Of a stretch of DNA of 33,119 nt, positions 3,502 to 33,119 are shown one piece after another (within the stretch, counting starts at the first letter, position 1; every line of letters starts with the position of its first letter). The notes beneath the pieces were generated by a model. That model saw only the letters and a list, made by a program, of their open reading frames with translations. It did no database searches and had not been told where the DNA came from. A program made the position numbers and the translations under genes. Source of the stretch: Clostridia bacterium (GTDB lineage Bacteria > Bacillota > Clostridia > Christensenellales > Aristaeellaceae); NCBI GenBank assembly GCA_017396845.1, contig JAFQKQ010000082.1:1-33119 (forward strand), read 5' to 3'.

Positions 3502-3528
3502 AAGGTATTGATGAAGGGAGGCGCTCAG

Positions 3529-4807: not shown

Positions 4808-4809
4808 AT

Positions 4810-13982: not shown

Positions 13983-15383
13983 GTGTACTGTGTAAGGTGC
14001 GGAAAGCGTGCGGATGAAGGAAGGCGTTTTTGCATAAAATGCGGCATGCGCCTGATCGAACCCGATTTGCTGATCGAGCTTTTGAGGGCGCTGGACGGCG
14101 AAAGAAAACCTGCGCACGCAAAGAAACCTCAGAAAACCGGTGAAGAAAAAAATACAAAAAAGACCGAGCGCACGAAAACGGAAGAGATCCGCCCGGGTAA
14201 AAGCAGGGATAAGGATATAAGGCTCGAAAGGGCGCTCAAAAGCAATGAATACGAGTTTTCTTTTTCAAGCCGTGAAGTAAAGCCTGAAAAAAAGGCCGTG
14301 CGGCTTCCCGAAAAGAAGATAAGCAGGGAACCGGAAAAGAAAGCGGCTGCGCCTAAGGTTAAACCGGTTGTAAAGCTTCCCGAAAAGCGCGAAAGCGATG
14401 TGAATGCCGAAAGCAGGAAGGTTAAGCGCCCGCAGGATGGAAAGGTTAAAACCTCTGACGGCAAAAGAACGGAAAGAGCGGCTTTTTCCGGTTTAAAAAG
14501 CGAAAGCGGAATACGGGAAATAAGAGTTCCCGCAGAAAAGGCTGAAAAGCGCGGGAACGTAAAAACCGAAAAAAAGCCCGTTCGAAGCGCTCAGAGTGCA
14601 AAAAGTGTGAAAAGCGGGGAAACTGCCAGGAAAAGCGGAGAGGTTGTCAGGAAAAGCGTGCCCTCGGGAAAACGCAAGGCGCCGCCCAAACGGAAATCTG
14701 CGGGGGAGAGGCTGTTAGACGAGGGAAAAAGGGTTCTGAAAAAGACGGCGAACTTTGTCGCCGAAGGTAAGGAAACGATTCTGAAAAACCTATCGGAAAG
14801 ACAGCCAAAGCCTTATAAAAAGAATACCAAATCCGGAAAAGCGGTAAGCGCAAAGGAAGCAAGAGAACGCGAAGAGCGAAGGAAAAAGACGGTGGTTCCG
14901 AAGCGGGAACCCGTAAGAAGCGATTATCGGAAGGGTCATTCGAGGTACGAGGAGGAAACCTTTGTAGAAAAATACCTCCGATCGATCATCGCGATGACGC
15001 TTTTGGGAATAACGGTGCTCTTTGTGGTCGTTTGGGGCGTATCCTCGCCGGGCGGAAAGCGCGCATTTGCGCAGCTGGGCGTGGGCGGTTCGGCCGGATA
15101 CATACTTCTGGGCGATGACTGCATGGCGGAAGAAAACTATACGAGAGCGGTTGAGTATTATTACAAGGCGCTATCCCGAAGGACCAGCGAGGAGGCGGCT
15201 CAAAAGCTCGCCCTGGCCTATTCTCATACGGGTGATATAGAAAGAGAAGCAAGCGCGCTTTTACTTCTGATTGATAAGTATCCGCGAAATACCGATGCGA
15301 GGGAGCGGCTGTGGATGCTGTATCCCGATCCTGCGACGAGGCCTGCTGCGGTTCAGGCGGCGCTCAGCGGGGAAACCGATTGA
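13983..15383 (+). CDS. Zinc-ribbon membrane protein with basic linker and TPR tail
   Basis: The 466-residue protein starts at GTG 13983, preceded by GGGAGTGAGG; the zinc ribbon begins at once, so no upstream start is needed. Four cysteines, Cys3, Cys6, Cys17 and Cys20 (CxxC-x10-CxxC), form a zinc ribbon. A 300-residue, extremely Lys/Arg/Glu/Ser-rich region (about 40-325) looks disordered. One membrane segment at about 334-356 (IAMTLLGITVLFVVVWGV) is followed by a TPR-like C-terminal part (about 375-455: EENYTRAVEYYYKALSR and LALAYSHTGDIE). By positive-inside topology the ribbon and linker are cytoplasmic and the TPRs extracytoplasmic. The length of the basic linker is unusual. Function unknown; it ends the block that began at 8394. 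Confidence 0.75.
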   Translation: MYCVRCGKRADEGRRFCIKCGMRLIEPDLLIELLRALDGERKPAHAKKPQKTGEEKNTKKTERTKTEEIRPGKSRDKDIRLERALKSNEYEFSFSSREVKPEKKAVRLPEKKISREPEKKAAAPKVKPVVKLPEKRESDVNAESRKVKRPQDGKVKTSDGKRTERAAFSGLKSESGIREIRVPAEKAEKRGNVKTEKKPVRSAQSAKSVKSGETARKSGEVVRKSVPSGKRKAPPKRKSAGERLLDEGKRVLKKTANFVAEGKETILKNLSERQPKPYKKNTKSGKAVSAKEAREREERRKKTVVPKREPVRSDYRKGHSRYEEETFVEKYLRSIIAMTLLGITVLFVVVWGVSSPGGKRAFAQLGVGGSAGYILLGDDCMAEENYTRAVEYYYKALSRRTSEEAAQKLALAYSHTGDIEREASALLLLIDKYPRNTDARERLWMLYPDPATRPAAVQAALSGETD

Positions 15384-18639: not shown

Positions 18640-20127
18640 TTACCCCTTCTCGTACCAGTGATAGTCATATCCCTTCTCGGTTTCCATTTTCACGGGAGAA
18701 AGAGCAAAATGAATCACGGCGTTGGGTTTTGCCTGAATCGTAAACGTTGAACTTACGCGGCGGCTTTGTACAAGCGGCTGACCGGCCAGGCGCAGGGTTT
18801 CTGTTTCTTCGCGCGTGAGCGACTGCTTTTCGCCCATGTCGTGCCATACCTTCAGCGGATTGGCAGACTCTTCATCCACTGTTTTGGTAACCAGCGCGTA
18901 TTCTCCGGTTATAGGCAGATTGATTTCCGTTTCAAGCGCATTCTCGTGTTTGCTTTGTATGTTCCAGATTACGCCCTGATAGGAGCCGTTTTTCTCCCGC
19001 ATGATGACGGCGTTTTCGTCCTTGTATACGCAATCGCCCTTCAGGTTGTTGAAAAATACGAACGTCCAGTAAGTGGGCTTGGGAATCAGGCCATTTGCAA
19101 TCAATCCAAAGCCGCCGTGAAAGGGACGCGCGGGTACGCCCATCTCCTCGAATACATCGCCGAATGTCCAATAGGAATAGGAGCGCGCTACATCGCCCAG
19201 CACGGACAGAAGTCCGGCAATGTTAGCCGCGTTGTAGTTTGTATCGTGGATGGGGCAGAAGGGGTTGTAGGAAGTATTGAACTCGGTAATGTGCATATCC
19301 ATACCGCGGAATTCGGGGAAGGAATCGATAATTCTGCGGCTTTCCTTCATCTCATTATAGGTATAGCTGACGTCGCACATTGTGTGATACAGATACCGTC
19401 CGTTTCTTTCGGGCGTCTGTCCCATATATGCATGGCGGGTAACAAAGTCAAGGGGCAGACGGTGATCGCGCACATAGGTGAGGAAATCGGAAATCCACTG
19501 CTGCGAGCCTTCGCCGCCGCAAATGGCGGGGCCGCCGACTGTGAAGCGCGGATTTACCTCTTTAACCGCCTTTGCCGTGATTTCGTAAAGATGGAGATAT
19601 TTTGCTTTGTCCGCATTCTCCCAGAACACGGGCAGATTCGGCTCGTTCCATACCTCGATCGGCCATGTAACCGCTTCTTCCTCGCCGTAGCGGTCGATCA
19701 GATGGGTAAGCGTGGTCTTTACAAGGCGGATCCATTTTTCATCGTCCTTGGGCGGCGTTACGTTTCCCTGCCAGTAGAATACGGTCTGCGTGCCGGAGGC
19801 CATGTTCTTCGGCATAAAACCGAGCTCAAGAAACGGCTTAAGCCCCTTTTCGAGGTATGAATCCATTACGCGGTCAAGGTATGTAAAGCAATAACTTTCC
19901 GTTTCTTCGCCGTCCTTGTTCGTAAAGTTATGATATATCGCCATATCATCCGAAAAAAGACCGTGACCGCGTATGTGGGAAAAGCGTGCGCCGGATTGAA
20001 CGTAAGAAAGCTGCTTCTGATACTCCTCCTGAAGCGCAAGCCCCATTCTTCCGGTTCCGATGCAAAATGATGCATGGTTTTTAAAGGATGCGGCGCTTGA
20101 TGTGTTTATCGTAATGCTCTTTTTCAT
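18640..20127 (-). CDS. Glycoside hydrolase family 39 (beta-xylosidase-like)
   Basis: A 495-residue retaining glycosidase of clan GH-A without a signal peptide, so it acts in the cytoplasm on imported oligosaccharides. The (beta/alpha)8 barrel carries the acid/base Glu162 in EVWNEPN and the nucleophile Glu282 in HITEFNTS. The 120-residue spacing is close to that of the characterised GH39 xylosidase pair (160/277). The C-terminal part (about 370-495) is a beta-sandwich accessory domain. I chose the ATG at 20127 because AAAAGGAGA lies just upstream; a longer frame would add 26 unlikely residues. It is transcribed divergently from the ABC cluster. Beta-xylosidase is the best guess; related GH39 enzymes act on iduronides and other glycans. 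Confidence 0.88.
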   Translation of the reverse strand: MKKSITINTSSAASFKNHASFCIGTGRMGLALQEEYQKQLSYVQSGARFSHIRGHGLFSDDMAIYHNFTNKDGEETESYCFTYLDRVMDSYLEKGLKPFLELGFMPKNMASGTQTVFYWQGNVTPPKDDEKWIRLVKTTLTHLIDRYGEEEAVTWPIEVWNEPNLPVFWENADKAKYLHLYEITAKAVKEVNPRFTVGGPAICGGEGSQQWISDFLTYVRDHRLPLDFVTRHAYMGQTPERNGRYLYHTMCDVSYTYNEMKESRRIIDSFPEFRGMDMHITEFNTSYNPFCPIHDTNYNAANIAGLLSVLGDVARSYSYWTFGDVFEEMGVPARPFHGGFGLIANGLIPKPTYWTFVFFNNLKGDCVYKDENAVIMREKNGSYQGVIWNIQSKHENALETEINLPITGEYALVTKTVDEESANPLKVWHDMGEKQSLTREETETLRLAGQPLVQSRRVSSTFTIQAKPNAVIHFALSPVKMETEKGYDYHWYEKG

Positions 20128-20228
20128 GAAATCGTCTCCTTTTCTGAAGCCTCGGGAGTCATAGGGATTTCGGGAATCGCATCTCATTACTTCGACATAA
20201 AACAAATGAGTCCTTCCTAATAACGAAG

Positions 20229-20283: not shown

Positions 20284-20312
20284 TTGACATTGGAAGTAAT
20301 TTGTATTAGAAT
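20284..20312 (+). promoter_or_regulatory. Sigma-A-type promoter of the sugar ABC operon
   Basis: A perfect TTGACA (20284-20289), a 17-nt spacer and TAGAAT (20307-20312). Transcription would start near 20319, leaving a leader of about 85 nt before ATG 20404. Confidence 0.75.
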
Positions 20313-20403
20313 ATGTACATTATTTGTGCTATAGTATTATGGATTCATGGGCGCCAAAGCCCGCGTTCTCTCGCGAAAACGGAAAATCGAAGGGGCGTTT
20401 TTT

Positions 20404-23322
20404 ATGTGGAAAAAGTGTCGTAATGCTTTGATTGTGGTAGCCTGCCTTGCGCTGATTATCGGATTAATCGCGCTGCTTGGCGGCGGAAGCGAGAATTTCC
20501 AGGCGAAGTATGAAGGCGCCGATCTTACGACGGACGTCTCGGGTATCGGGCGCAGCGATACATACGATGCTTATTTAAGAAAGCATGCGTCTGATAAGCT
20601 TGGCGTTAATGAAATCAATACGGACATCGCCGCATTTACCGGCGATGGCGAAGCGCGCACGGACGAAAACGGCAATCCCTGCGTGTACACTTCGGACGAG
20701 TCCTCCGTAACTTGGACGGTAAACGTTGAGGAAGCGGGCATGTATACCATCATGCTTGATTACCTTGCGGTTCAGTCCCGCGGCGTGGATATCGAACGAG
20801 AGCTGTACATTAACGGTGAGCTGCCCTTTTCCGGAGCCGGCGCGCTTTGCTTTAACCGCCTCTGGACGGACGCAGGGGAAGTGAAACAGGACAATCAGGG
20901 CAATGATGTACGCCCCTCTCAGATGGAAGTATTCGGTTGGCAGAAGATGTATCTGAAGGACGATATGGGATATAACGTTGATCCGTATCGGTTCTATTTC
21001 AAAAAGGGCGAAAACACCGTCACTTTAAAGGGCATTAACGAGCCCATGATGATTCGCGAAATCAAGCTGATGCCGATTGAAAGAAACGTATCCTATGAAG
21101 AATATCTCGCGTCGCTTCCCGCTGTTGAAATGTCTGAGGAAGCAAAGAAATGGCAGACGACGATTCAGGGCGAGGATGCATATCTGCGTTCGACGCCGTC
21201 GCTCTATGCAAGATACGATCGTTCCTCTCCCGATACCGAGCCCTACAGCGTAAAGAACACCATCCTCAATTACATCGGCGGCGATCCGTGGCGCACGGCA
21301 GGCCAGTGGATTGAATGGGAGTTCGAAGTGCCGGAGGACGGATATTACAATATTTCCGTAAAAGCGAGACAGTCCTATCAGCGCGGCTCCGTTTCCGCAA
21401 GAACGCTCTATCTGGACGGAGAGATTCCGTTTGAAGAGGCGTCGGTGATTTCCTTCGATTATAATACCGCTTGGGAGGTTTATACGCTTTCGGACGCAAA
21501 CGGGGAAGCCTATAACTTCTATCTGGAAAAGGGCAAGCACACCGTTCGTCTGGAGGCGACGCTGGGCGAAATGGGTCCGATTCTTGAGCAGATCGAAGAG
21601 AGCATTTACAGGCTCAACCTGATCTACAGAAAGATTCTGGTATTAACCGGCGTAAATCCTGATCACTTCCGCGATTACAACCTTGCCAAGGTATATCCCG
21701 AGGTTATCGAGGCGATGGATCTTGAGAGCAAGAGACTTTATAAGCTGGTAGACGATACCGTAGCCATCACGGGACAAAAGAGCGACCGCGTGGCGGTTGC
21801 CCAGACGCTGGCAGCGCAGCTGGAGCGCTTTGTAAGAAACAACGACCGCATTACGCAGCAGTTCACAAACTTCAAAGACAATATCACGTCCCTGGGCACC
21901 GCCATGCAGAACATGTCCGAGACGAAGCTGGATATCGACTTGATCGTTGTGAGCGGCGCCGATTACGATGTTCCCAAGGCGAGGGACGGTTTCTTCCAGA
22001 AGGCATTGCACGAAATACGCTCCTGCGCAACTTCTTATTTTGTAGATTACAACTCTTTGGGCGATAAGTTCGAAGAGGGCGAGAGCGAAGACCTGATCGA
22101 GGTATGGATCGTGACCGGCCGCGATCAGAGTACCGTTCTTAAGACGATGATCGACGATACGTTTACGCCGATGACCAGGGAAAACGGACGAGAGATCAAG
22201 GTAAATGTAAAACTGGTTATCGCAGATACCCTTCTTACCGCAGTTGTCGCCGGAAACGGCCCGGACGTCGTATTGTCGCTTGGCTCCTGGTTCCCGGTAA
22301 ACTACGCAATGCGAAACGCGGCAGAGGATCTCACCCAGTTTGAAGACTTTGATGAGGTTGTAAAGCCCTTCTATGAGAGCGCGCTTCTGCCCGCAGAATA
22401 CAACGGCGGCATCTACGCGCTTCCCGAAACTCAGGAATTCTCGGTACTCTTCTACAGAACCGATGTGCTGGAAGAAATGGGCGTACAGCCGCCGGATACA
22501 TGGGACGATCTGATTGCGCTGCTTCCCACTATTCAGGGAAACAACATGTCAGTGGGTATTACCTATCCCGATATCGCGACGGTAGACCTTTCCATTCTCA
22601 ACTCCCTGATCTACCAGAACGGCGGATCGATCTACGATGCGGACGGCAAAAAGACGCTGATCGACGAAGAAAGCGGCGTAGAAGCGTTTAAGCTCTATAC
22701 TTCTCTTTACAACGACTACAGCCTTCCCACGGTATTCGACTTTGTAAGCCGCTTCCGTTCCGGTGAAATGCCGATCGGTATTGCAAACTACAGCGTATAC
22801 AATACGCTGGTTGTATCCGCTCCCGAAATCAGAAACCTTTGGGACTTCACGCTTTTCCCGGGCACTGTCAGAACTGATGAAAGCGGAAAGGAATACATCG
22901 ACCGCTCGGTTCACGCGCAGGGTCTTAGCTGCATGATGATTGCAACGGACAATGAACGCGTAAAGGAAAACGCTTGGGAGTTCATGAAGTGGTGGGTAAG
23001 CGCGGACGCGCAGGTGCGCTTCGGCCGCGAAATCGAAAGCATTCTCGGTTCCTCCGCCAGATACACCACCGCTAACCGCGACGCGCTTGAACAGCTGGCG
23101 TGGGGCGGCGATCAGCTGAAGGTTCTCAAAGAGCAGATGCAGTGGACGGTAGGCTTCCGCGAGATCGCCGGCGGCTACTCCACCACGCGCCACATGACCA
23201 ACGCCATCCGCCGTGTTATCAATACCAAGGAGGATGCGCGCGAAACGCTTTTGACCTATGCAAGGACCATCAACGAGGAAATCCGAATCAAACGCAAAGA
23301 ATTCGGCTTACCGCTGGAATAA
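20404..23322 (+). CDS. Membrane-anchored solute-binding protein fused to two carbohydrate-binding-like domains
   Basis: A 972-residue surface protein. An N-terminal hydrophobic stretch at 7-25 with no convincing lipobox or cleavage site suggests an uncleaved anchor. Two similar beta-sandwich modules follow (about 35-245 and 255-400); both contain a GxYxI strand, an R-x-LY(I/L)(N/D)GE(L/I)PF motif and a closing (Y/F)(Y/F)F(K/L)-type strand before KG-x4-V-x-L, as in CBM6/CBM35-like folds. A helical stretch (about 400-530) precedes a family 1 extracellular solute-binding domain (about 560-972) with GPDVVLSLGSW, GGIYALPETQEF and TWDDLIALLP. I start at ATG 20404 behind AGGGG; the in-frame ATG at 20347 lacks a ribosome binding site. 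Classic binding proteins are about 430 residues, so this is a fusion. Two permease genes follow directly. Confidence 0.85.
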   Translation: MWKKCRNALIVVACLALIIGLIALLGGGSENFQAKYEGADLTTDVSGIGRSDTYDAYLRKHASDKLGVNEINTDIAAFTGDGEARTDENGNPCVYTSDESSVTWTVNVEEAGMYTIMLDYLAVQSRGVDIERELYINGELPFSGAGALCFNRLWTDAGEVKQDNQGNDVRPSQMEVFGWQKMYLKDDMGYNVDPYRFYFKKGENTVTLKGINEPMMIREIKLMPIERNVSYEEYLASLPAVEMSEEAKKWQTTIQGEDAYLRSTPSLYARYDRSSPDTEPYSVKNTILNYIGGDPWRTAGQWIEWEFEVPEDGYYNISVKARQSYQRGSVSARTLYLDGEIPFEEASVISFDYNTAWEVYTLSDANGEAYNFYLEKGKHTVRLEATLGEMGPILEQIEESIYRLNLIYRKILVLTGVNPDHFRDYNLAKVYPEVIEAMDLESKRLYKLVDDTVAITGQKSDRVAVAQTLAAQLERFVRNNDRITQQFTNFKDNITSLGTAMQNMSETKLDIDLIVVSGADYDVPKARDGFFQKALHEIRSCATSYFVDYNSLGDKFEEGESEDLIEVWIVTGRDQSTVLKTMIDDTFTPMTRENGREIKVNVKLVIADTLLTAVVAGNGPDVVLSLGSWFPVNYAMRNAAEDLTQFEDFDEVVKPFYESALLPAEYNGGIYALPETQEFSVLFYRTDVLEEMGVQPPDTWDDLIALLPTIQGNNMSVGITYPDIATVDLSILNSLIYQNGGSIYDADGKKTLIDEESGVEAFKLYTSLYNDYSLPTVFDFVSRFRSGEMPIGIANYSVYNTLVVSAPEIRNLWDFTLFPGTVRTDESGKEYIDRSVHAQGLSCMMIATDNERVKENAWEFMKWWVSADAQVRFGREIESILGSSARYTTANRDALEQLAWGGDQLKVLKEQMQWTVGFREIAGGYSTTRHMTNAIRRVINTKEDARETLLTYARTINEEIRIKRKEFGLPLE

Positions 23323-23345
23323 TAAGGAAAGGAAGTTGATGTCAG

Positions 23346-24284
23346 TTGAAATCGAATTTCAAAGCGTTCCTGAGCATGAAGCGCGAAAGTATGCAGTATA
23401 ACTTCGCCAAGGCCAAACGCATGAAGGTATGCTATCTGTTTCTGCTGCCTTACGCAATTCTGTTTACGACCTTCTTCATCCTTCCCATCTGTACTTCCAT
23501 ATATTATAGCTTTACCCAGTATAATATTTTGGAAAAGCCGCAGCTTGTCGGTTTTCAGAACTACATCAACCTGTTTCTGCAGGACGAGGTATTCTTGACC
23601 GCCATTAAGAACACGCTGGTCATCGCGGTGATCACAGGACCGATCGGATACATACTTTCCTTCCTGTTTGCGTGGTTCATCAATGAGCTTCCCAAGTGGA
23701 TCCGCGCGGTTGCGGTTGTAGTATTCTACGCGCCGTCCATCGCCGGAAACGTATTCTACATCTTCTCCATCATCTTCAGAGGCGATGTTTACGGCTATCT
23801 GAACTCTTTCCTGGTAGAGTTTGGCCTGGTTGATTCGCCGATTCTCTGGCTCACGGACCCCAATTACATGCTGACGGTTATCATCATCGTCATCCTTTGG
23901 ATGAGCATGGGCACGGGCTTCCTTTCATTCGTTGCCGGTCTTCAGGGCGTTGACAGAAGCATGTACGAAGCAGGATATGTCGACGGCGTAAGAAACCGCT
24001 GGCAGGAGCTTTGGTATATCACGCTTCCCAGCATGAGACCGATGCTTCTTTTCGGCGCGGTTATGTCGATCACTCAGGCGTTTAACGTGTGCGATGTTCC
24101 CAGAGCGCTCGCCGGTTACCCGAGTACCGACTACGCGGCCCGAACTATCGTAACGCACCTGTTTGACTACGGTTTCTCGCGCTTTGAGATGGGTTACGCG
24201 TCCGCAATCGCTACGGTTCTGTTCCTTGTTATGATCCTTTGCAATAAGGCAATTCAGTCGATGCTGAGAAAGGTGGGCAGCTGA
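23346..24284 (+). CDS. Sugar ABC transporter permease, MalF/UgpA type
   Basis: A 312-residue permease of the CUT1 family. Six membrane segments are visible, the first at about 27-50 (VCYLFLLPYAILFTTFFILP). The cytoplasmic EAA loop, which docks the ATPase, reads YEAGYVDGVRNRWQELWYITLP. The most likely start is TTG 23346, with GGAAAGGAAG 10 nt upstream; the next in-frame ATG (23376) has no ribosome binding site. It pairs with the following MalG-type permease, and the solute-binding chimera lies 23 bp upstream. No ATPase gene is in the window, so a shared MsmX/UgpC-type ATPase encoded elsewhere is expected. Confidence 0.92.
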   Translation: MKSNFKAFLSMKRESMQYNFAKAKRMKVCYLFLLPYAILFTTFFILPICTSIYYSFTQYNILEKPQLVGFQNYINLFLQDEVFLTAIKNTLVIAVITGPIGYILSFLFAWFINELPKWIRAVAVVVFYAPSIAGNVFYIFSIIFRGDVYGYLNSFLVEFGLVDSPILWLTDPNYMLTVIIIVILWMSMGTGFLSFVAGLQGVDRSMYEAGYVDGVRNRWQELWYITLPSMRPMLLFGAVMSITQAFNVCDVPRALAGYPSTDYAARTIVTHLFDYGFSRFEMGYASAIATVLFLVMILCNKAIQSMLRKVGS

Positions 24285-24286
24285 GC

Positions 24287-25561
24287 ATGATGAATCAGTT
24301 AAACGTGCAGAAACCCGCCAAAAAATCCCGAGGAGACATACTGCATGAGCAGATGGTTCGACTGGGTGAAATTCAGCCGGAAAAGCCGCCGCTTAATAAG
24401 ATGCGCTTTCTGATTATTTCGCTGGTCGTGCTTGCAATGCTGGCCGCGCTGTTCATCGTATGCGATTACCGCTTCGGCGTTATTGAAGAATACGAGCTGA
24501 CGCTTGAAGCATCGGGAGAAATACAGGAACCGGCGGTAATTATTGAAGAGACCGCGCCAGAGGCCGAAGCGGGCGCCGAAACGGCTGCAGCCGAAGAGGA
24601 AAGCGGCGCGCCGAAGGATGCGGCATTCGGCGGCTTCTACAAGCTTGGAAAAATTATCGCAATCGTTGCAGGAATCATCTATACCGCTTTTGCTGTGATT
24701 AAGCTGCTCGCGCCCAAACGCAGAAAGCCCAACCGCAGTATATGGGGCGATATCGGAATTTATATCATGCTATTCATCGTGGCCATCGCCATGGTGTTCC
24801 CGCTGGTATTCTCGGTGGGCGCGTCTCTTAAGCCTCTTGACGAGTTGTTCCGCTTCCCGCCGACGGTTTTCCCCAGACAGCCTACCTTTGATAACTTCTC
24901 TGATCTGTTCGTCACCATGTCCCAGAGCTTTGTTCCGTTTTCAAGGTATCTGGTGAATACCGTTCTGATCACGCTGATCGGTACCGGCGGTCACGTGCTG
25001 ATCGCGTCCATGGCGGCATTCGTACTTTCCAAGTACGATTTCCCGGGCGGGAAGATCTTCTTCTCAATCGTCGTTACCGCGCTCATGTTCTCCGGTTACG
25101 TTACCGGTATTCCGAACTATGTAATCATGAGCAAGCTCAATATGATCGATACCTATTGGGCAATCATTCTCCCGGCGTTTGCCGCGCCGATCGGATTGTT
25201 CCTCATGAAGCAGTTCATGGAAGGGCTTCCGATGTCTCTGATCGAAGCTGCGCATCTGGACGGCGCGGGCGAGTTCCGCGTATTCTGGAGCATTATCATG
25301 CCGAACGTAAAGCCGGCGTGGCTTACGATTATCATCTTCTCCGTTCAGAGTCTGTGGAATACCAACGCATCCACGGTTATTTACTCCGAAGCGAAAAAGA
25401 CGCTCGTCTACGCGCTTCAGCAAATCCAGGCCGGCGGTATTGCCCGCACCGGTCAGGCGGCGGCGGTTACGGTCATCGTTATGCTGGTGCCCATTACGAT
25501 CTTCATCCTGTCGCAGAGCCGCATTCTGGAAACCATGGCGAGCTCCGGTCTGAAGGACTAA
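24287..25561 (+). CDS. Sugar ABC transporter permease, MalG/UgpE type, with acidic insert
   Basis: A 424-residue CUT1 permease, about 140 residues longer than the usual ~280. The extra part is N-terminal. A cytoplasmic stretch (1-38) and a first membrane segment (39-62) lead to an extracytoplasmic Glu/Ala-rich region (about 66-108), and then a second segment (about 118-138). The usual MalG core follows from about 155, with PLVFSVGASLKP, the FSKYDFPGG-like AAFVLSKYDFPGG and the EAA loop LIEAAHLDGAGEFRVFWSIIMP. It starts at ATG 24287, 2 bp after the previous stop. The acidic insert could contact the solute-binding chimera or another surface protein of the cluster; that is inference. Confidence 0.9.
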   Translation: MMNQLNVQKPAKKSRGDILHEQMVRLGEIQPEKPPLNKMRFLIISLVVLAMLAALFIVCDYRFGVIEEYELTLEASGEIQEPAVIIEETAPEAEAGAETAAAEEESGAPKDAAFGGFYKLGKIIAIVAGIIYTAFAVIKLLAPKRRKPNRSIWGDIGIYIMLFIVAIAMVFPLVFSVGASLKPLDELFRFPPTVFPRQPTFDNFSDLFVTMSQSFVPFSRYLVNTVLITLIGTGGHVLIASMAAFVLSKYDFPGGKIFFSIVVTALMFSGYVTGIPNYVIMSKLNMIDTYWAIILPAFAAPIGLFLMKQFMEGLPMSLIEAAHLDGAGEFRVFWSIIMPNVKPAWLTIIIFSVQSLWNTNASTVIYSEAKKTLVYALQQIQAGGIARTGQAAAVTVIVMLVPITIFILSQSRILETMASSGLKD

Positions 25562-25604
25562 AGATGGACGAATGCGTTTGAATTTCGACAGGGGGGATTA
25601 GACG

Positions 25605-27113
25605 GTGAAATCATTGGCAAGGGTACTGACGGTGTTCCTTGCATTCGTGATGCTGCTTCCTTCATTTGCAGCGTTCGCCAGCGAGGATGGTAACTTTACC
25701 ACTTATACCTACAATTACGATTATTGGCAGGATGAAATCGAAATGCCCGATGCGTACCGCGTTGAGCAGGTCATATATTCAAGCACGCTGGGACTTGAAA
25801 CGCCCATGAACAAGCCGGAGAGTTTGTATATCAGGGACAGTTTCATATATGTAGCCGATACCGGCAACAACCGAGTGCTCGAAATTGAAAGACAGGGGAA
25901 AGAGTTCGTACTTACGCGGATTATCGATACCATTTACGGTGCGATGCCCTCCAATCTGGTAGCGCCCAGCGACATGTTTGTCGATGAAAACGGTACGATT
26001 TACATTTGCGATACCGGCAATCAGCGCATTGTAAAAGCCGATAAGGATTTGAACTTCCTTATGAGCTTTACAAAGCCGCAGGATACCACCTTCGATCAGG
26101 GTGATTTCCTGCCCAGCCGACTGGTTGTAGACGTGTCCGGGCGCGTGTATACGCTTGCCACCAATGTAAACAAGGGTCTCATCAAGTATGAAGCGGACGG
26201 CTCGTTTGCCGGCTTTATCGGCGCGAACCCGGTTACATACACGATGGCGGAATACATCTGGAAGACGTTTTTCACATCGAAAGCGCAAAGGGCGCAGCAG
26301 GTGGCCTTTGTTCCCACCGAATACAGCAATATCGCAATTGATGACGAGGGTTTCATCTATGCCACGAACGCTGTATTCTCCGAATACGACCTCATCTGGG
26401 ACAACGCAAAGCCCATCCGCCGCTTGAACAGCATCGGAAATGATATTCTGGTCAAAAACGGCTGGCTGCCGCCGATCGGCGATATCTACTGGGAAGAGCA
26501 GTCCATCGAATACGGCCCCAGCAAATTCCGCGATATTACGGTGCTTGAAAACGATATCTATGTTGCCTTCGACCGCACCCGCGGACGCATGTTCGGCTAT
26601 GACAGTCAGGGAATTCTTCTCTGGGCGTTCGGTACGAAGGGAAATGTGGAAGGTACGTTTACCGGCGCTGCTTCCATTGAGCATATGGGCCGAGATCTCT
26701 ACTGCTTGGACGAACTCGGCTGCACGATCACGGTATTCAAGCCCACCGATTACGGCAACCTGATCTTTGAAGCCACCGACCAGTATCTCAAGGGCGATTA
26801 CGACGAAAGCGCAGACACCTGGAGAAAGGTACTGAAGCTCAATGCCAACTATAACCTGGCCTTCATCGGAATCGGCCGAGCGCTCATGCGTCAGGAAGAA
26901 TTTGAAGAAGCCATGGAATATTTCAAGATGGCATATGATCAGGAAAACTACGGCAGAGCCTATCGCTATTACCGCAAGGAAAAGATCGAGGGCAATATCG
27001 GCTGGATCGTTGCGGTGCTTGCCGTTCTTCTGATTGTGCCGCTGATTATTCGGAGAATCCGCAACATGAAATGGGAGGTGCAGGAATATGAGCGTAAAAA
27101 AGCTGGACGCTAA
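25605..27113 (+). CDS. Secreted, membrane-tethered NHL-repeat/TPR protein
   Basis: A 502-residue protein that starts at GTG 25605 behind GGGGGG. A signal peptide is evident (cleavage likely after AFA at 23-25). NHL-type beta-propeller blades cover about 60-400, for example YVADTGNNRVLEI at 82-94 and YICDTGNQRIVKA at 133-145. A TPR-like helical pair sits at about 405-460 (GDYDESADTWRKVLKLN and RQEEFEEAMEYFKMAY). One C-terminal membrane segment (about 467-485) and a basic tail anchor it. The propeller is therefore extracytoplasmic. NHL propellers bind proteins or glycans. The start of the Yip1-family gene overlaps by 26 bp, so both are co-translated. It could be an assembly factor or glycan sensor for the transporter; unproven. 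Confidence 0.82.
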   Translation: MKSLARVLTVFLAFVMLLPSFAAFASEDGNFTTYTYNYDYWQDEIEMPDAYRVEQVIYSSTLGLETPMNKPESLYIRDSFIYVADTGNNRVLEIERQGKEFVLTRIIDTIYGAMPSNLVAPSDMFVDENGTIYICDTGNQRIVKADKDLNFLMSFTKPQDTTFDQGDFLPSRLVVDVSGRVYTLATNVNKGLIKYEADGSFAGFIGANPVTYTMAEYIWKTFFTSKAQRAQQVAFVPTEYSNIAIDDEGFIYATNAVFSEYDLIWDNAKPIRRLNSIGNDILVKNGWLPPIGDIYWEEQSIEYGPSKFRDITVLENDIYVAFDRTRGRMFGYDSQGILLWAFGTKGNVEGTFTGAASIEHMGRDLYCLDELGCTITVFKPTDYGNLIFEATDQYLKGDYDESADTWRKVLKLNANYNLAFIGIGRALMRQEEFEEAMEYFKMAYDQENYGRAYRYYRKEKIEGNIGWIVAVLAVLLIVPLIIRRIRNMKWEVQEYERKKAGR

Positions 27114-27756
27114 AGGCGAAACGCGCTTTCAGCGCTACATCGCCTCCGTAAAATACGCAAAGCATGTAATCTTCCACCCCTTCGACGGATTCTGGGATCT
27201 GGTGCATGAAAAACGCGGAAGCCTTATGGCTGCGCACACGTTTCTCGCGCTGTTTCTGATTACGTATATTTTAAGGCTCATGTATACGAACTTCCAGTTC
27301 ATTACTGCGCCGATTCAGTACATCAATATCTATGAGCAGTGCGCGTCCATTCTTCTTCCGTTTATCATCATCTGTATCTCCAACTGGGCGCTTTCTACGC
27401 TCTTTGACGGAAAAGGCTATTTCAAGGATATCTATATGGCGCTGTGCTATGCGCTTGTGCCGTATTTCCTGATTCAGCTTCCGCTGGTGCTCATCAGCCA
27501 TGCAATCTCCTTTGACGAGTTTGCCTATTACAACGTGCTTGCCGGAATTTCTGTAATCTGGCCGGTATTTCTGGTGTTCGTCGCGCTCATGCAGGTGCAC
27601 GATTATACACCCGGAAAGGCGATCATCTTCCTGTTCGTCACCATTTTCGGCGCGCTTGTAATTCTGTTCCTCATTCTGGTATTCTTTAGCCTTTTGAGCG
27701 ACGCAGCGGCGTATTTCGTTTCGCTGTATCGCGAGATTGTCTTTAGACTTCACTAA
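27088..27756 (+). CDS. Yip1-family integral membrane protein
   Basis: A 222-residue polytopic membrane protein with about five membrane segments (roughly 48-68, 86-108, 118-142, 148-170, 178-212). The N-terminal cytoplasmic part ends in HPFDGFWDLVHEKRGS, the pattern that precedes the first helix in Yip1-domain (PF04893) proteins. The domain is widespread in Bacillota near ABC transporters but lacks an assigned role in bacteria. It overlaps the NHL/TPR gene by 26 bp and is followed 14 bp later by the DUF5696 gene, so it sits in the centre of the accessory trio. It may act as a membrane scaffold. Confidence 0.75.
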   Translation: MSVKKLDAKGETRFQRYIASVKYAKHVIFHPFDGFWDLVHEKRGSLMAAHTFLALFLITYILRLMYTNFQFITAPIQYINIYEQCASILLPFIIICISNWALSTLFDGKGYFKDIYMALCYALVPYFLIQLPLVLISHAISFDEFAYYNVLAGISVIWPVFLVFVALMQVHDYTPGKAIIFLFVTIFGALVILFLILVFFSLLSDAAAYFVSLYREIVFRLH

Positions 27757-27770
27757 GGAGGGGTGTGACG

Positions 27771-30359
27771 ATGAAAAAGCAAAAGTCGATTTTCATTCGT
27801 TTGCTTCCGTGGCTGATTCTATTGGCTGCGCTGGCGGTGTTTGTGATTTTTGTCGGAATCCCTCTGTATGCGCCTCAGGAAACGGAAGAGCTCGATCCGC
27901 CCGAGATTTTCTTCTATGAAGGAGATATGGACAAAGAATCCCTTAAGATGGAAAACGAGCATCTCCTTTTTGAGATGGATCCCGATACCACGCAGTTTAC
28001 TGTCACCGAAAAGGACACCGGCCGCGTATGGCGTTCGAATCCTGCGGATGCAGCAAGCGATACGAAGGCCGTATCCACCAACAAGGGCGTATTGCAGTCT
28101 ACGATGCTGCTCTATTACTCTCCCTCCGGCGGTACCGATATTGAAAGAAACAACTATCAGTACTCGATCGAAAACGGCAACTTTTCCTATGAGATCACGG
28201 AGGACGGAGCGATCAGAGTAACCTACGCGATCGGTCAGATCGAAAAGGTATACGTAATTCCTTATGCCATCACCGCCGAAAGGTACAAGATGTACACCGA
28301 CATGATGAGCGGTAAGGACAAGAAAAAGGTTGGCGGTTACTATTCCAAGCAGACGCCCGCATCTCTTGACAAGCTCAGCGCTGACGAAAAGGATGCGATG
28401 CTGGCGCTGTATCCGTCGCTTGCAGAGCAGGAGCTCTACATTATGAAGTCCAATATCTCCGCAAGCAACAAAGAAAACGCTGAAAAGGTGTTCGCATCTC
28501 TCGGATACAATCAGGCGGAATATGAACTGGATCAGCAGCTGATCGCGGGCAAGAAGGAGAGCGAAGAGCCCGTATTCAACGTGACGATGGAATACCGCCT
28601 GGACGGCGAAGATTTTGTCGTAAGCGTTCCCATGCAGGATATGCGCTACCGCAGCGATTATCCTTTGACCTATGTGACCGTGCTTCCCATGTTCGGTGCG
28701 GCGGGTCTTGATCAGGAAGGCTTCATGCTGGTGCCCGAGGGCGGCGGCGCGCTCATCAACTACAACAACGGAAAAATTAAGCAGAACAGCTATTTTGCCA
28801 ACATGTACGGCTGGGATTACGCGATGAAGCGAAAGGAAGTTATTTCCGAGACGCAGGCGCTGTTCCCCGTGTTCGGCATGACCGGCAACGGCGGTTCCTT
28901 CATCTGCGTGATCGAGGGTGCGACTTCCTATGCAGGTATTCAGGCCGATGTAAGTATGCGCTATAACAGCTATAACTACGCAAACGCCAAATACCATGTC
29001 ATTCACGGCGAAGAATACAATGTTTCCGCCAAGACGGCCGCTATCGTTAAGATGTTTGAAAAGCAGATCCCCGAGGACACGATCGTTCAGAGATACTGCT
29101 TTGCAGAAAGCGACAGCTATGTCGATATGGCGAAGACCTACGGAGAATATCTGAAGAGCGTGTATCCCGAGCTTAACCGGATCAATGAAGATGAGGATTT
29201 GCCGGTAAACGTTGAACTGGTCGGCGCAATCAGCAAGACCGTCATTAAGTTCGGCACGCCCGTAGACTCTTCCGTTGCCGCCACCACCTTTGACGACGCG
29301 CAGACGATCATTGAAGACCTCCGGGCAAACAACATTCATAATCTCAGCGTCCGCTTCTCGGGATGGGCAAACGGCGGCGTGAACCAAAGAGTTTTTGACA
29401 AGATCAAGGTAGTTAAGCAGCTCGGCGGGGAAGAGGACATGCTTGAGCTGATTGAAAGCGCCGAAGAAAACGGTATTCCGCTGTACTTTGACGGAATCAG
29501 CTGCTTTGCCTATGACAGCGGCATACTTCGCGGCTTCTCTCCCTTTAACGACTCTGCTCGCTATGCTACCCGTGAACAGGTCGAGATTGAGCCGTACTCC
29601 TTTGTAATCTATCTGCCTGTGGATTGGAAGGATTCCTTCCAGCTGACGAGTCCTGAGTATGCCGGTCAAATGGCCAGCAATCTCATAGAAAAGCTCGACG
29701 AAATGGATGCTTGCGGCGTCGCATTCCGCGATATCGGCAGCCTCCTGAGCGCGGACTACAATCCCAAGGCGCTTGTCACCCGCGAGCAGGTGAAGCAGAT
29801 GAACATCGAAACCCTGAAGGAAGCAAAGGATAAGGGTCAGCTTGTTCTGATCAAAGAAGGTTTCGATTTCGCGATTCCCTATGCGGACAGGATTACCGAC
29901 ATGGATCTGGACGGCACAGCATATTCCATTCTGGATGCGTCCGTACCGTTCTATCAGATTGCGCTGCATGGAAATGTTGAATATACGGGACTTCCCATCA
30001 ACATTTCTCAGGATTGGGAAACCGAGCTTCTCAACTGCGTTCAGTACGGCGCGGGTCTGAACTTCACGTTCATGGCAGAGGACGCCAAGATCGTTCAGGA
30101 AACCTATCATTCTGGCCTCTACGGTGCATATTACACCGATTGGGCGGAGGATGTTAAGAAGATCGTAAACGATTATCAGACCAGCATGAAGGGTCTGAAC
30201 CAGATTGAGATCGTTGATCACGAGATTCTGGGCGACGTTACGGTTACGACCTATGCGGACGGCAGAAGCGTTTATGTCAACTATGGATTTGAGGATTGCA
30301 CGGTTGAAAAGAACGTTGTACCTGCGCGCAGCTACTTTGTTGCAGGGGGTGACCGGTAA
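27771..30359 (+). CDS. DUF5696-type membrane-anchored extracellular protein
   Basis: An 862-residue protein with a single N-terminal membrane segment at about 6-34 (short basic N-terminus, then LLPWLILLAALAVFVIFVGIPLY) and the rest outside. I choose ATG 27771, spaced 7 nt from AAGGAGGGG; a GTG 6 bp upstream is too close. The segment MENEHLLFEMDPDTTQFTV opens a galactose-mutarotase-like beta-rich N-terminal part (about 60-440), and an alpha/beta part (about 480-840), with repeated strand-helix units such as VRFSGWANGG and IPLYFDGIS, resembles a TIM barrel. The overall shape recalls the DUF5696 family of Bacillota; catalytic acids cannot be assigned. Its place between two permease pairs suggests a glycan hydrolase or binding protein. 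Confidence 0.7.
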   Translation: MKKQKSIFIRLLPWLILLAALAVFVIFVGIPLYAPQETEELDPPEIFFYEGDMDKESLKMENEHLLFEMDPDTTQFTVTEKDTGRVWRSNPADAASDTKAVSTNKGVLQSTMLLYYSPSGGTDIERNNYQYSIENGNFSYEITEDGAIRVTYAIGQIEKVYVIPYAITAERYKMYTDMMSGKDKKKVGGYYSKQTPASLDKLSADEKDAMLALYPSLAEQELYIMKSNISASNKENAEKVFASLGYNQAEYELDQQLIAGKKESEEPVFNVTMEYRLDGEDFVVSVPMQDMRYRSDYPLTYVTVLPMFGAAGLDQEGFMLVPEGGGALINYNNGKIKQNSYFANMYGWDYAMKRKEVISETQALFPVFGMTGNGGSFICVIEGATSYAGIQADVSMRYNSYNYANAKYHVIHGEEYNVSAKTAAIVKMFEKQIPEDTIVQRYCFAESDSYVDMAKTYGEYLKSVYPELNRINEDEDLPVNVELVGAISKTVIKFGTPVDSSVAATTFDDAQTIIEDLRANNIHNLSVRFSGWANGGVNQRVFDKIKVVKQLGGEEDMLELIESAEENGIPLYFDGISCFAYDSGILRGFSPFNDSARYATREQVEIEPYSFVIYLPVDWKDSFQLTSPEYAGQMASNLIEKLDEMDACGVAFRDIGSLLSADYNPKALVTREQVKQMNIETLKEAKDKGQLVLIKEGFDFAIPYADRITDMDLDGTAYSILDASVPFYQIALHGNVEYTGLPINISQDWETELLNCVQYGAGLNFTFMAEDAKIVQETYHSGLYGAYYTDWAEDVKKIVNDYQTSMKGLNQIEIVDHEILGDVTVTTYADGRSVYVNYGFEDCTVEKNVVPARSYFVAGGDR

Positions 30360-31510
30360 TGGCTAAGGCAAAAATGAAGGGCGGCGTCAGACGCTGGACT
30401 CTGAAAGAGATCTTTTTGACCTATGTGCCTGTTGAGCCTTTGAAACGATGGTTTTACGAGTCGCATAGAAAGAACAGCGTCTTATTAGAACAGAAAACCG
30501 AAATAAAGCCGGATCAGTTTTTGAAAGAGGCGCTCAGAGATAGAAACGAAACCGACGGTTATCAGTCTTTGATAAAGACGCCCAGAAAGAGCAACGAAAC
30601 CTTCAGTTCCATGCGCTCCAGGAACGCCCGAATCGGCACGATGTTTGTGCTTCCGTTCATCATCGGCTTCCTCGTGTTCATGATCGGGCCGCTCGTCGAG
30701 TCGCTTATGATGAGCTTCTCATCCGTTACCATCGTCCGCGGAAGCGGCTACGAAAGCCAGTTTATCGGATTTACGAACTATAAATATGCGCTCAGCGTAG
30801 ACCCGGAGTTCAACACTTTCCTCGTGGACGAAATCGGCAGAATGGCGATCAACGCCATATCGACACTGGTTCTGAGCTTCGTTATCGCGGTTATTCTGAA
30901 CCAGAATTTCAAGGGCAGAACCGCTGCCCGCGCAATCTTCTTCCTGCCGGTAATCCTCGCCTCCGGTGTTCTGCCCGGCATTGAAGCGCAGATCGGTTCC
31001 AACCAGGAAATTACGATGATCGAGTCGGTTGCAGAAGAGCTGTCGTCCTCCTCCGGTATCAATATATCGGAAACGCTTCAGGAACTTCTGTCCGTATCCG
31101 GCGTTGCCGGAAGCGTATTCCAAATACTCTTTGACATGATTGACGCCATCTACGACATAGTAATGGCCAGCGGTATACAGATCATCGTATTCCTGTCCGG
31201 TCTTCAGGCCATTTCGCCTTCTCTGTATGAGGCGGCAGACATGGAAGGCTGTACCGCGTGGGAATCCTTCTGGAAGATCACGTTCCCCATGGTCAGCCCG
31301 CTGCTTCTTGTCAACTGCATCTACACCATTATCGACTTCTTCATGAAGAACGATAACAAGGTTATGGAGCTGATCAACGAGGTTATGTACAAGCAGGTTC
31401 GCTTTGGCGAAAGTGCTGCGATGAGCTGGATTTACTTCGCAATTGCCCTCTCATTCATTGCAGTGAGCTCCGTCATCATCACCAGGGGGGTGCACTACTA
31501 TGAAGACTAA
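30359..31510 (+). CDS. Second MalF-type sugar ABC permease, with extracytoplasmic insert
   Basis: A 383-residue CUT1 permease whose start overlaps the previous stop (TAATG), with AGGGGG upstream. A 93-residue basic cytoplasmic N-terminus precedes the first membrane segment at about 95-118 (FVLPFIIGFLVFMIGPLV). The EAA loop LYEAADMEGCTAWESFWKITFP is intact. Between membrane segments, about 210-265, there is a Ser/Glu-rich insert (AEELSSSSGINISETLQELL) with a second helical region that ordinary MalF proteins lack. Both extensions make it distinct from the permease at 23346, so the two transporters are not recent duplicates. It overlaps its MalG partner by 11 bp. Confidence 0.9.
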   Translation: MAKAKMKGGVRRWTLKEIFLTYVPVEPLKRWFYESHRKNSVLLEQKTEIKPDQFLKEALRDRNETDGYQSLIKTPRKSNETFSSMRSRNARIGTMFVLPFIIGFLVFMIGPLVESLMMSFSSVTIVRGSGYESQFIGFTNYKYALSVDPEFNTFLVDEIGRMAINAISTLVLSFVIAVILNQNFKGRTAARAIFFLPVILASGVLPGIEAQIGSNQEITMIESVAEELSSSSGINISETLQELLSVSGVAGSVFQILFDMIDAIYDIVMASGIQIIVFLSGLQAISPSLYEAADMEGCTAWESFWKITFPMVSPLLLVNCIYTIIDFFMKNDNKVMELINEVMYKQVRFGESAAMSWIYFAIALSFIAVSSVIITRGVHYYED

Positions 31511-32507
31511 TAAAACCGAAATCATCAGAAAGCGCAGTTTCTGGGAGGCTAACCGTCAGTCCGGCGGCTACCTCTTAAGAAATCGAGTTTCCCGCATTGT
31601 AGTTTCCTTTGTTCGCGCGCTGCTTTTGTTCGGCTTGTGCTTCATGATCATTCAGCCCCTTCTGACGAGGTTTTCCACCTCACTCATGACGGAACGCGAT
31701 CTGTACGATTCTACCGTAATCCTTCTTCCGAGGGAAGTTACCTTTGATAACTACAGAATCGTTGCCGATCTTACCAACCTTCCCAAGTCCATGCTCAATA
31801 CAATCTGGACGTGCACGCTGGTGTCTGCGCTTCAGGTTATCGCATGTACGCTCGTAGGTTATGGCTTTGCAAGATTCGATTTCCCGCTTAAGAAGCTTTG
31901 GTTCGGCTGCGTCATCGTAACCATCATCGTACCGCCGCAGACCATCGCAACGGCTTTGTACATGAACTTCGTAAACTTCGACATTCTGGGTATCTTTAAG
32001 CACTTTACCGGCAAGGGTATAAACCTTCATGGTTCATTGGTTCCCTACAGCCTGATGAGCTTAACCTGCATGGGTCTTAAAAACGGTTTGTACATCTACA
32101 TGCTCAGGCAGTATTTCAGGGGCATACCCAAGTCTCTGGAAGAAGCGGCGTATGTGGACGGCTGCAAAACGCTCAGAACCTTTGTGAAGATCATGCTGCC
32201 CGACGCCAAACCCACAATTCTCAGCTGTTTCCTTTTCTCCTTCGTATGGCAGTGGACGGATCTTTTCTACACCAGAAACTTCCTGTCCAACTATTCTATC
32301 TACTCTAACGAGCTTTCCACAATCCTTACCCGTATGAATTACTACTTCTCTACGGAGTCCGGAAAGCCCACTATCGTGCCGGTCGGCAGACAGATGCAGC
32401 TGGTATCCATCGGCATTCTGGTCTGCTGCATCCCGCTGATTATTCTCTACATCTTCACCCAGAGAACCTTTGTAGAGAGTATCGCGATGTCCGGTACGAA
32501 GGAATAA
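31500..32507 (+). CDS. Second MalG-type sugar ABC permease
   Basis: A 335-residue CUT1 permease with six membrane segments, the first at about 36-60 (ALLLFGLCFMIIQPL). The EAA loop reads LEEAAYVDGCKTLRTFVKIMLP. The ATG at 31500 lies inside the end of the preceding permease gene, with AGGGGGG 10 nt upstream. Residues about 155-185 include an extra loop (LGIFKHFTGKGINLHGS). It pairs with the permease at 30359 and is separated by 314 bp from the second solute-binding protein, which completes the importer. Confidence 0.92.
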   Translation: MKTNKTEIIRKRSFWEANRQSGGYLLRNRVSRIVVSFVRALLLFGLCFMIIQPLLTRFSTSLMTERDLYDSTVILLPREVTFDNYRIVADLTNLPKSMLNTIWTCTLVSALQVIACTLVGYGFARFDFPLKKLWFGCVIVTIIVPPQTIATALYMNFVNFDILGIFKHFTGKGINLHGSLVPYSLMSLTCMGLKNGLYIYMLRQYFRGIPKSLEEAAYVDGCKTLRTFVKIMLPDAKPTILSCFLFSFVWQWTDLFYTRNFLSNYSIYSNELSTILTRMNYYFSTESGKPTIVPVGRQMQLVSIGILVCCIPLIILYIFTQRTFVESIAMSGTKE

Positions 32508-32821
32508 GAAACGGGATTGCCCGGATCAGCGCAGCTGCTTTCCGGGGAATGAATCCTTCATAAGTCCATGCGCTCGGGTATGCTGCGTAAATCAACTGTT
32601 GATATAAAAAAACGGGTGATTCACAGGCCTCTTGCTGCCCTTCCGGGAGGAGGGGAGGCGGCTTGTGAGAGCCGCAGGGTGGCCGCAGACAGCCGGCTTG
32701 AAGCACAAAGTGTATATGAGCGCCTGCCTGAAGCATCAACGCTATCGCGGCGCCCCGTAAAATCGAATCTGTGTGCATGAGAAATCATGCATGTAGAAAT
32801 ATTATTTAGGAGGATCCCATT
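32508..32821. other. 314-bp gap before the second solute-binding gene
   Basis: No credible gene. It holds the 13-bp palindrome ATCAAC-T-GTTGAT (32591-32603), a GC-rich stretch with a GCGGCT/AGCCGC hairpin (about 32658-32676) that may be another dispersed repeat, and a hairpin just before the ribosome binding site (32774-32791). A 70-codon frame across 32568-32780 has no similarity I recognise and no ribosome binding site. I found no clear -35/-10 pair. Confidence 0.5.
32774..32791 (+). promoter_or_regulatory. Hairpin directly upstream of the solute-binding gene
   Basis: TGCATGA (32774-32780) and TCATGCA (32785-32791) are a perfect 7-bp inverted repeat around GAAA. It ends 17 nt before the AGGAGG at 32808-32813. 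It may stabilise an mRNA 5' end created by processing, which would raise binding-protein output relative to the permeases. Confidence 0.45.
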
Positions 32822-33119
32822 ATGAAGAAACTGGTCGCAATGCTCCTTTCCCTCATGATGCTGCTTGCATGCGCAAACGTGCTGGCGGAAGCTCCCGAAG
32901 GATACCCTGAGATCAAAGCAGGCGTAGACTTTGGTGGCGCACAGATCTACATCTACGACTATTGGACCGCAAGTGCTGATCGCGTAGCCGAGCCCACTGA
33001 TGAACAGCAGGCTCAGTATGACTACCGTGACTGGCTCGAGGCTACCTACAACTGCAAGATCACCCAGATCCAGAAGGGCGACTGGGAGTCCAACGTAACC
33101 GAGCTCATTAACTTCACCA
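32822..33119 (+). CDS. Extracellular solute-binding protein of the second sugar transporter (partial)
   Basis: The first 99 codons of a gene that continues past the window. The ATG at 32822 has a perfect AGGAGG at 32808-32813. A signal sequence covers the first 22 residues: basic MKK, then a Leu/Met-rich core. Two readings exist: signal peptidase I cleavage after VLA (residue 22), or a weak lipobox LLAC with Cys17 as lipid anchor; the second is less typical because the -2 residue is Leu. The mature start, with FGGAQIYIYDYW, matches family 1 binding proteins. It follows the permease pair 30359-32507 and is presumably their ligand receptor. Its codon use looks biased to preferred codons, as expected for an abundant protein. 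Confidence 0.85.
   Translation, partial: MKKLVAMLLSLMMLLACANVLAEAPEGYPEIKAGVDFGGAQIYIYDYWTASADRVAEPTDEQQAQYDYRDWLEATYNCKITQIQKGDWESNVTELINFT

Follow-up and report, generated by a model that had tools for sequence, protein, structure and literature searches.

The octet and its genes

The stretch of DNA analysed here (the window) is the 33,119-nucleotide contig JAFQKQ010000082.1 of a Clostridia gut bacterium of the family Aristaeellaceae (assembly GCA_017396845.1). Between positions 20404 and 32507 it carries eight tightly packed genes on the plus strand, here called the octet, which are the subject of this work and which may together encode a composite CUT1 importer of glycans. The first gene encodes SBPc (20404-23322; a 991-amino-acid open reading frame, ORF, if the longest start at 20347 is taken), with the solute-binding protein (SBP) domain SBP_bac_1 at residues 617-889. 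It is followed by two CUT1 permeases, the MalF/UgpA-like pA (23346-24284), which has an EAA loop, and the MalG/UgpE-like pB (24287-25561), which has an acidic insertion. Three genes of other kinds come next: NHL/TPR (25605-27113), an NHL propeller with TPR repeats and one C-terminal membrane helix (NHL 2.2e-10, TPR below the cut-off); Yip1 (27088-27756), a multi-helix membrane protein with a Yip1 domain (1.3e-13); and DUF5696 (27765-30359; 2.4e-180), in which an N-terminal membrane helix precedes a GH129-like beta-sandwich and TIM barrel. A second permease pair closes the octet, namely the MalF-like pC (30359-31510), with an N-terminal extension of about 90 residues, and the MalG-like pD (31500-32507).

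All eight labels are backed by Pfam, BPD_transp_1 being found in each of the four permeases. With the starts used in the preliminary description of this DNA, the successive gaps and overlaps are +23, +2, +43, -26, +8, -1 and -11 bp; alternative starts for pA (23376) and NHL/TPR (25632) widen the gaps before them to 53 and 70 bp. That description had listed nine ORFs with small gaps or overlaps up to 32507. All nine are present, and Pfam agrees with it for the octet.

Recurrence of the octet in other genomes

The same genome holds a second full copy on contig C99 (L004), in the order stand-alone SBP, SBPc, two permeases, NHL/TPR, Yip1, DUF5696 and two permeases. The DUF5696 proteins of the two copies are only 27% identical, which makes L004 a paralogue of long standing, not the product of a recent duplication. 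Of 60 close genomes, 26 have a DUF5696 match above the family cut-off, as have 43 of 398 genomes sampled across the phylum (this genome included in both counts). For the comparison of gene order, 68 loci were chosen by DUF5696 score and every ORF was scanned with models of the eight parts. They comprise the window, L004, all 34 other close-genome matches of at least 438 bits, and 32 of the 63 strong phylum-wide places, picked by hand to spread over families. Neighbourhoods were fetched for strong matches; L069-L072, weak DUF5696 matches that are GH129-like enzymes and show no module by the models, had been dropped before the count.

All eight functions occur in one order in 48 of the 68 loci: 34 have a separate Yip1, two (L197, L201) a Yip1 that falls narrowly below the 150-bit cut, 11 a fused NHL-Yip1, and L210 a split pB. 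In L210 (7084-8337) the two pieces of pB lie around an opposite-strand ORF of 417 amino acids, as if an element had inserted. Six loci (L193, L196, L198, L199, L212, L214) have a permuted order, in which NHL-Yip1, DUF5696, pC and pD are followed by SBPc and, in four, also by pA; in extended regions from four genomes with this order (L225-L228), pA and pB come after SBPc. Among the remaining 14, five are incomplete and reach contig ends (L049, L052, L057, L058, L207), pB is moved or missing in three (L056, L059, L063), and L194 is rearranged, with pD moved; the other five are L204 and L205, in which pD was not detected, and L188, L211 and probably L191, in which the stretch from NHL to pD stands without the other half. 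The gene order on whose conservation the preliminary description had made its proposal depend is therefore found well beyond the window, in one form (48/68) or permuted (6/68).

A separate scan of 80 named loci gave 62 plain octets, three octets with an extra or split piece, and 15 that hold part of the octet with its order unchanged, one of them with an additional pD piece; these loci share several contigs with the 68-locus set, and contig ends may account for some of the 15. Many of their titles name ruminant gut sites. Two named isolates agree in their annotated order: plasmid pNP243 of Butyrivibrio fibrisolvens D1 has it, with a GH43 gene, two SBPs and a two-component system nearby, and so has Paenibacillus cellulosilyticus (L218), where NHL and Yip1 are fused. 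The arrangement recurs in loci from all 18 family codes with strong DUF5696 matches. For this reason it is not a matter of chance, and a lineage-specific oddity, considered as an explanation, was ruled out.

Co-occurrence was scored in 397 other phylum genomes, the cuts for a strong match being set by eye at 319 bits or more for DUF5696, 192 or more for NHL and 427 or more for the N-terminal half of SBPc. Strong DUF5696 and strong NHL/TPR matches fall in the same 40 genomes, and strong matches to the SBPc half in those 40 plus two more (G157, G199). G156 was retained at 111 bits, its match being cut by a contig end; left out below the cuts were two genomes with SBPc matches of 72 bits or less, G282, whose NHL piece scores 177 bits, and the many genomes whose NHL matches do not exceed 85 bits. 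Fisher's test, computed with 398 genomes although the sets leave out this one, and ignoring relatedness, gives p < 1e-50. About three to four candidates were scored per genome, so copies are undercounted and neighbour tallies are lower bounds: at least 56 of 63 DUF5696 places lie within 3 kb of NHL and at least 56 of 71 NHL places within 3 kb of DUF5696, and at least 42 of 63 DUF5696 places lie within 15 kb of SBPc and at least 42 of 64 SBPc places within 15 kb of DUF5696. Some genomes are rich in copies. Among nine searched, DUF5696 matches number 22 in G136 (several of them fragments), 11 in G117, 11 in G096, 10 in G183, 8 in G209, and one to four in the other four.

Two side observations belong here. 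Four genomes of one family (G066, G109, G146, G175) have frames of about 456-561 amino acids that match the N-terminal half of SBPc at 143-182 bits, were left below the cuts and have no strong DUF5696 match; they are possibly simpler relatives of the SBPc-pA-pB part. The DUF5696 match at G096:C5:103998-104681 lies in a frame reported as 24,576 amino acids, possibly a stretch of unknown bases.

Two permease pairs and a possible shared ATPase

The two permease pairs differ in their extensions and insertions. Reading of the translations showed the long acidic insertion of pB, and in pC an insertion besides the N-terminal extension. Between pA and pC, and between pB and pD, cross-matches score no more than about 62-120 bits, whereas matches within one type score 340-528 bits, and simple duplication of one pair was rejected on these distances, as the preliminary description had held from the extensions alone. 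The strict EAA-loop pattern is present in 124 of 129 pA, 119 of 125 pB, 124 of 143 pC and 117 of 134 pD sequences. Since the loop is kept in most copies, both pairs look competent to engage an ATPase.

The conserved unit contains two diverged permease pairs, whereas the usual CUT1 make-up, as given in an excerpt of PMC11212667, is one SBP, two permeases and one ATPase. Pfam finds no ATPase gene among the eight octet proteins. The genome (73% complete) has two matches to OB_MalK, the mark of MalK-type ATPases, as against 82 permease-domain matches of all ATP-binding cassette (ABC) kinds. In L068 and in P. cellulosilyticus the gene immediately before SBPc is of the UgpC type, and six other loci have weaker ABC-ATPase matches (82-108 bits). 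The energy-coupling component may thus be a shared UgpC/MsmX-type ATPase. Excerpts of PMC8579813 and PMC12838199 describe the sharing of one ATPase, MsmK, as established in Caldicellulosiruptor bescii. The cello-oligosaccharide importer of that organism resembles the octet in its MalF/MalG-type permeases with EAA loops, its SBP, the lack of an ATPase gene in the locus and the few MalK-type ATPases in the genome. However, the octet has two permease pairs instead of one, and NHL/TPR, Yip1, DUF5696 and a multi-domain SBP as constant parts.

The presence of two pairs also admits another explanation: the locus might hold two importers with different substrates, kept together because one polysaccharide gives two products, with NHL/TPR, Yip1 and DUF5696 serving pC-pD only. 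Each half does have its own permease pair, and halves occur alone or in swapped order. However, SBPc is present in every one of the 40 other genomes with a strong DUF5696 match, and normal CUT1 importers are generally known to work without a five-gene partner, so that we consider two separate importers a rather doubtful explanation. In the composite importer that we prefer, the occurrence of halves alone is the reason for reading the octet as two interdependent parts.

SBPc, NHL/TPR and Yip1

SBPc is a sugar-type solute-binding protein by Pfam, by PDB sequence and by fold. Its model (mean pLDDT 78.5) shows an N-terminal helix, two beta-sandwich domains, a helical bundle and a C-terminal CUT1-type solute-binding domain. 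The two beta-sandwiches repeat one another in tandem (28% identity over 108 columns, profile probability 98.4). In PDB sequence and fold comparisons the solute-binding domain is nearest to oligosaccharide binders, such as CbpB and a binder of beta-1,2-glucan. Matches of SBPc to CBM35 and golvesin are below the Pfam cut-offs, so a carbohydrate-binding-module-like nature is a lead only. SBPc and the flanking SBPs were also considered as classical lipoproteins; a lipobox-like pattern occurs in 9 of 117 SBPc N-termini and in 11 of 53 flanking proteins of 425-500 amino acids (some of them not SBPs).

NHL/TPR and Yip1 are joined in one ORF in 28 cases among 152 loci, the sole kind of fusion found; in L066 and L056, for instance, Pfam places Yip1 after NHL. 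On a tree of pC plus pD from 65 loci, quickly made without bootstrap and with several long branches, the fused or separate state changes five times, four of them forced by starred branches. The repeated fusion is the best evidence here that NHL/TPR and Yip1 act as one unit. It also lends support to the suggestion of the preliminary description that the trio of NHL/TPR, Yip1 and DUF5696 may be assembly factors.

DUF5696, a GH129-like protein

The AlphaFold2 model of DUF5696 (mean pLDDT 85.9, pTM 0.83) has its best fold matches in GH129 (5opq_A, TMt 0.66 and TMq 0.52; 5wzn_A, TMt 0.67 and TMq 0.50), followed by GH101, GH36 and GH31. A profile of 29 DUF5696 sequences likewise reaches GH129 (8rzk, E 2.5e-14; 5wzn, E 1.3e-11). 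L071 belongs to no module and matches DUF5696 weakly; as a genuine homologue of GH129 (NagBb, 1.2e-193), it anchors the catalytic columns. We take D435 of NagBb to be the catalytic nucleophile and E478 the acid/base; the title of 8rzk, a D486N Michaelis complex, fits these roles. In the module proteins, of which three were left unclassed, the nucleophile column is Asp in 105 of 118 from loci with separate Yip1 and in 9 of 28 from fused ones. For the acid/base column, where the register may be off by one residue, the counts of Glu are 51/118 and 1/28, with 6/118 and 6/28 in the neighbouring register.

DUF5696 could be a retaining glycosidase, active and anchored in the membrane, that removes side chains at the mouth of the channel, an explanation compatible with a composite importer. 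Its fold is that expected, and among proteins at least 50% identical to the window protein, which itself has both residues (D654 and E696), the Asp is kept in 74 of 74 and E696 in 46 of 74. In the other 28 of these close relatives, however, E696 is replaced by M, Q, R, T, K or another residue; at 40-50% identity Asp is found in 18 of 20 and Glu in 5 of 20, and below 40% Asp in 24 of 54, Glu in 1 of 54 and both in none of the 54. No Asp/Glu column reaches 90% in the 29-row diverse alignment. Metal-ligand positions, deduced from a quadruple mutant of NagBb, are changed too, a point that says little because three of the four GH129-like comparison rows differ at most of them as well. The GH129 catalytic pair is not kept across the family, and an active glycosidase seems unlikely as the general role of DUF5696.

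As the acid/base Glu is not kept family-wide, we read DUF5696 as a glycan receptor; judged by its residues, it probably binds glycan without hydrolysing it. The 'processing' role put forward in the preliminary description retains the GH129-like fold and the two catalytic-position residues of the window protein in its favour, and is weakened by a Glu that the family as a whole does not keep. Comparison of nine related loci, in which flanking proteins were taken by place and length (seven of nine match an SBP family in Pfam), gave median pairwise identities of 45.9% for DUF5696 and 44.4% for the flanking SBP-like gene, the least conserved, and 77.5% for pA, the most conserved. High variation of DUF5696 and of the flanking SBP would be expected if both face the substrate. 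With respect to NagBb (discussed in an excerpt of PMC8106489) and ZgGH129, DUF5696 thus combines a best fold match and weak but significant profile matches, GH101 and GH36 being more distant, with two differences: the N-terminal membrane helix of the window protein and the non-conserved Glu.

Genomic surroundings and substrate

The octet of the window is flanked on the left by a GH39 gene (18640-20205, minus strand; PF01229, 3.2e-112), divergent from it and close to solved beta-xylosidases (1px8, E 8.5e-144). GH39 also lies beside the octet in two congeners (L042, L043); it is a neighbour outside the octet core. On the right, a stand-alone binding protein (32822-33119, plus strand) is cut by the contig end at 33119. 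Its first 99 amino acids have no Pfam match and are 93% identical to a 455-amino-acid ORF at the same place in a congener. The preliminary description had joined it tightly to the octet, a link that does not hold for an incomplete gene starting 314 bp away. A promoter-like site (20284-20312; score 11/12; one found, 1.0 expected) and a terminator-like site (32768-32797; one found, 0.3 expected) were not used, and no Rfam match was found in the window at gathering scores.

The flanks of the module were tallied from 144 of 145 same-strand genes of 200-1100 amino acids within two genes of it, in 61 of the 68 loci, and the top 25 families were listed. SBP_bac_1 is present in 32 of 53 proteins of 425-500 amino acids and in 6 of the 91 others. 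Among the families listed, plant-wall enzymes are represented by GH43 (four in the first set and three in the second), GH10 (two and two), GH26 (one and three), GH5 (four) and arabinofuranosidase (four), besides CBM65 (two) and CBM27 (two). Single neighbours include GH30 (L184), CBM27-GH26 (L210), an apiosidase (L211) and GH106 (L188). The flanks also hold many proteins other than glycan enzymes (112 families among the set of 91). The enzymes vary from locus to locus while the core is constant, and these neighbours make a glycan the likely substrate class. For the window copy, the beta-xylosidase-like GH39 points weakly to xylo-oligosaccharides. In the P. cellulosilyticus plasmid (L218, 19874-29097) the module is followed by five oxidoreductases, four of them flavin-dependent and of the LLM class and one NADPH-dependent, a hint that the substrate of this copy may not be a standard one.

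Regulators near some copies raise the question of whether the trio is instead a sugar-sensing or signalling device coupled to transport, feeding two-component or AraC regulators. An NHL propeller, TPR repeats and a membrane domain would suit such a device; a histidine kinase and a response regulator adjoin the Butyrivibrio copy, and an AraC-type sensor lies near L208. Nevertheless, regulators are not constant neighbours: among the families listed, LacI-type accounts for three and HTH_18 for two of the 91 flanking proteins, and in the window the stretch from 15596 to the contig end, where GH39 and the transporter lie, showed no regulator. Sensing as the main role of the trio is accordingly very improbable.

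Other features were noted in passing. In L204 and L205 (G436) an ORF of 1590-1611 amino acids follows pC, that of L204 with a CBM4_9 match. Elsewhere in the window, and unrelated to the importer, citrate lyase genes lie at 3484-7597 (by Pfam, the ligase, an HpcH/HpaI-type lyase and the CitF alpha subunit; other genes there are presumably the gamma subunit and citX). A membrane protein of 434 amino acids encoded at 8394-9698 matches DUF624 and has a long insert rich in Glu, and a Lys-rich protein with an N-terminal zinc ribbon is encoded at 13983-15383. The largest AT skew in the table for the window (0.44) is that of 14001-15000.

A proposed composite importer and its counterparts

From gene order, co-occurrence, fusions, domain content, predicted fold and residue variation, we propose, with a probability of about 0.55, that the octet encodes a two-part composite CUT1 glycan importer served by a shared UgpC/MsmX-type ATPase. 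Part A (SBPc-pA-pB) would be a complete importer, in which SBPc, through its own tandem beta-sandwiches, would retain chains on the surface for loading. Part B (NHL/TPR-Yip1, DUF5696 and pC-pD) would add a second permease pair and a membrane-anchored, GH129-like glycan-binding subunit, NHL/TPR-Yip1 being the scaffold that ties DUF5696 to the permeases. One ATPase would drive both pairs, and the substrate would be set by exchangeable stand-alone SBPs and secreted plant-wall enzymes. A physical complex of the octet proteins is what we infer from such an arrangement.

In a bolder form, the octet would be a double-barrelled supercomplex, with two CUT1 heterodimers on an NHL/TPR-Yip1 scaffold, DUF5696 as a retired GH129 barrel turned receptor and SBPc as a tethered loader: a Gram-positive counterpart of SusCD, present in many copies in some genomes and given its substrate by exchangeable SBPs and enzymes. 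This form is tentative, and we regard it as possible at best.

Several observations weigh against the composite importer. G157 and G199, in which SBPc lies near a contig start (at about 2 kb), gave neither a DUF5696 match nor a strong NHL match. The model scan of the locus ORFs did not detect pD in L204 and L205. The half from NHL to pD occurs without the other in L188, L211 and probably L191, and SBPc-pA-pB alone in L221 and L224, in each case within about 19.5 kb fetched. L188, L211, L221 and L224 come from the multi-copy genomes G117 and G209, and because half modules occur the two parts need not form one particle. With respect to substrate and function, the flank enzyme counts stand without control neighbourhoods and give no measure of enrichment, the P. 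cellulosilyticus copy lies beside LLM flavin oxidoreductases and not glycosidases, and the window DUF5696, to judge from its D654 and E696, may be active. The multi-component glycan-uptake system with an integral trio, as first described for this DNA, is consequently upheld by an order and content conserved in 18 family codes, and qualified by the half modules, the moved or missing pB and the pD exceptions.

In Bacteroidota, the TonB-dependent channel SusC and the lipoprotein SusD form a constant capture-and-uptake core with variable enzymes and binding proteins. The octet is likewise a constant core with variable enzymes and SBPs, expanded in some genomes. However, it has no TonB-dependent channel but ABC permeases in the Gram-positive cytoplasmic membrane, and Pfam finds no SusC or SusD match among the eight proteins and GH39. 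Gram-positive polysaccharide utilization loci (gpPUL), in an excerpt of PMC10318527, consist of a degrading enzyme, an ABC transporter and a regulator, without a fixed accessory core. The octet shares with them transport genes beside plant-polysaccharide enzymes, and sometimes regulators, and differs in being a recurring eight-gene core. In the open-licence literature, outside which most subscription papers lie, we found no paper joining Yip1, NHL and sugar ABC transport under the terms used, and none naming DUF5696; the octet is apparently a widely conserved, undescribed system.

The customary picture of fibre uptake by Gram-positive bacteria of gut and soil is a simple ABC importer with three parts. 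A constant core of eight genes, strongly matched in 40 of the 397 phylum genomes sampled besides this one and in multiple copies in some, suggests a second and more elaborate uptake architecture, whose parts go by the names 'NHL repeat', 'YIP1 family' and 'DUF5696' in standard annotation. The proposal would provide DUF5696 and a bacterial Yip1 family with a function that can be tested, and in many Gram-positive bacteria the octet seems to be a standard chassis for taking up plant fibre.

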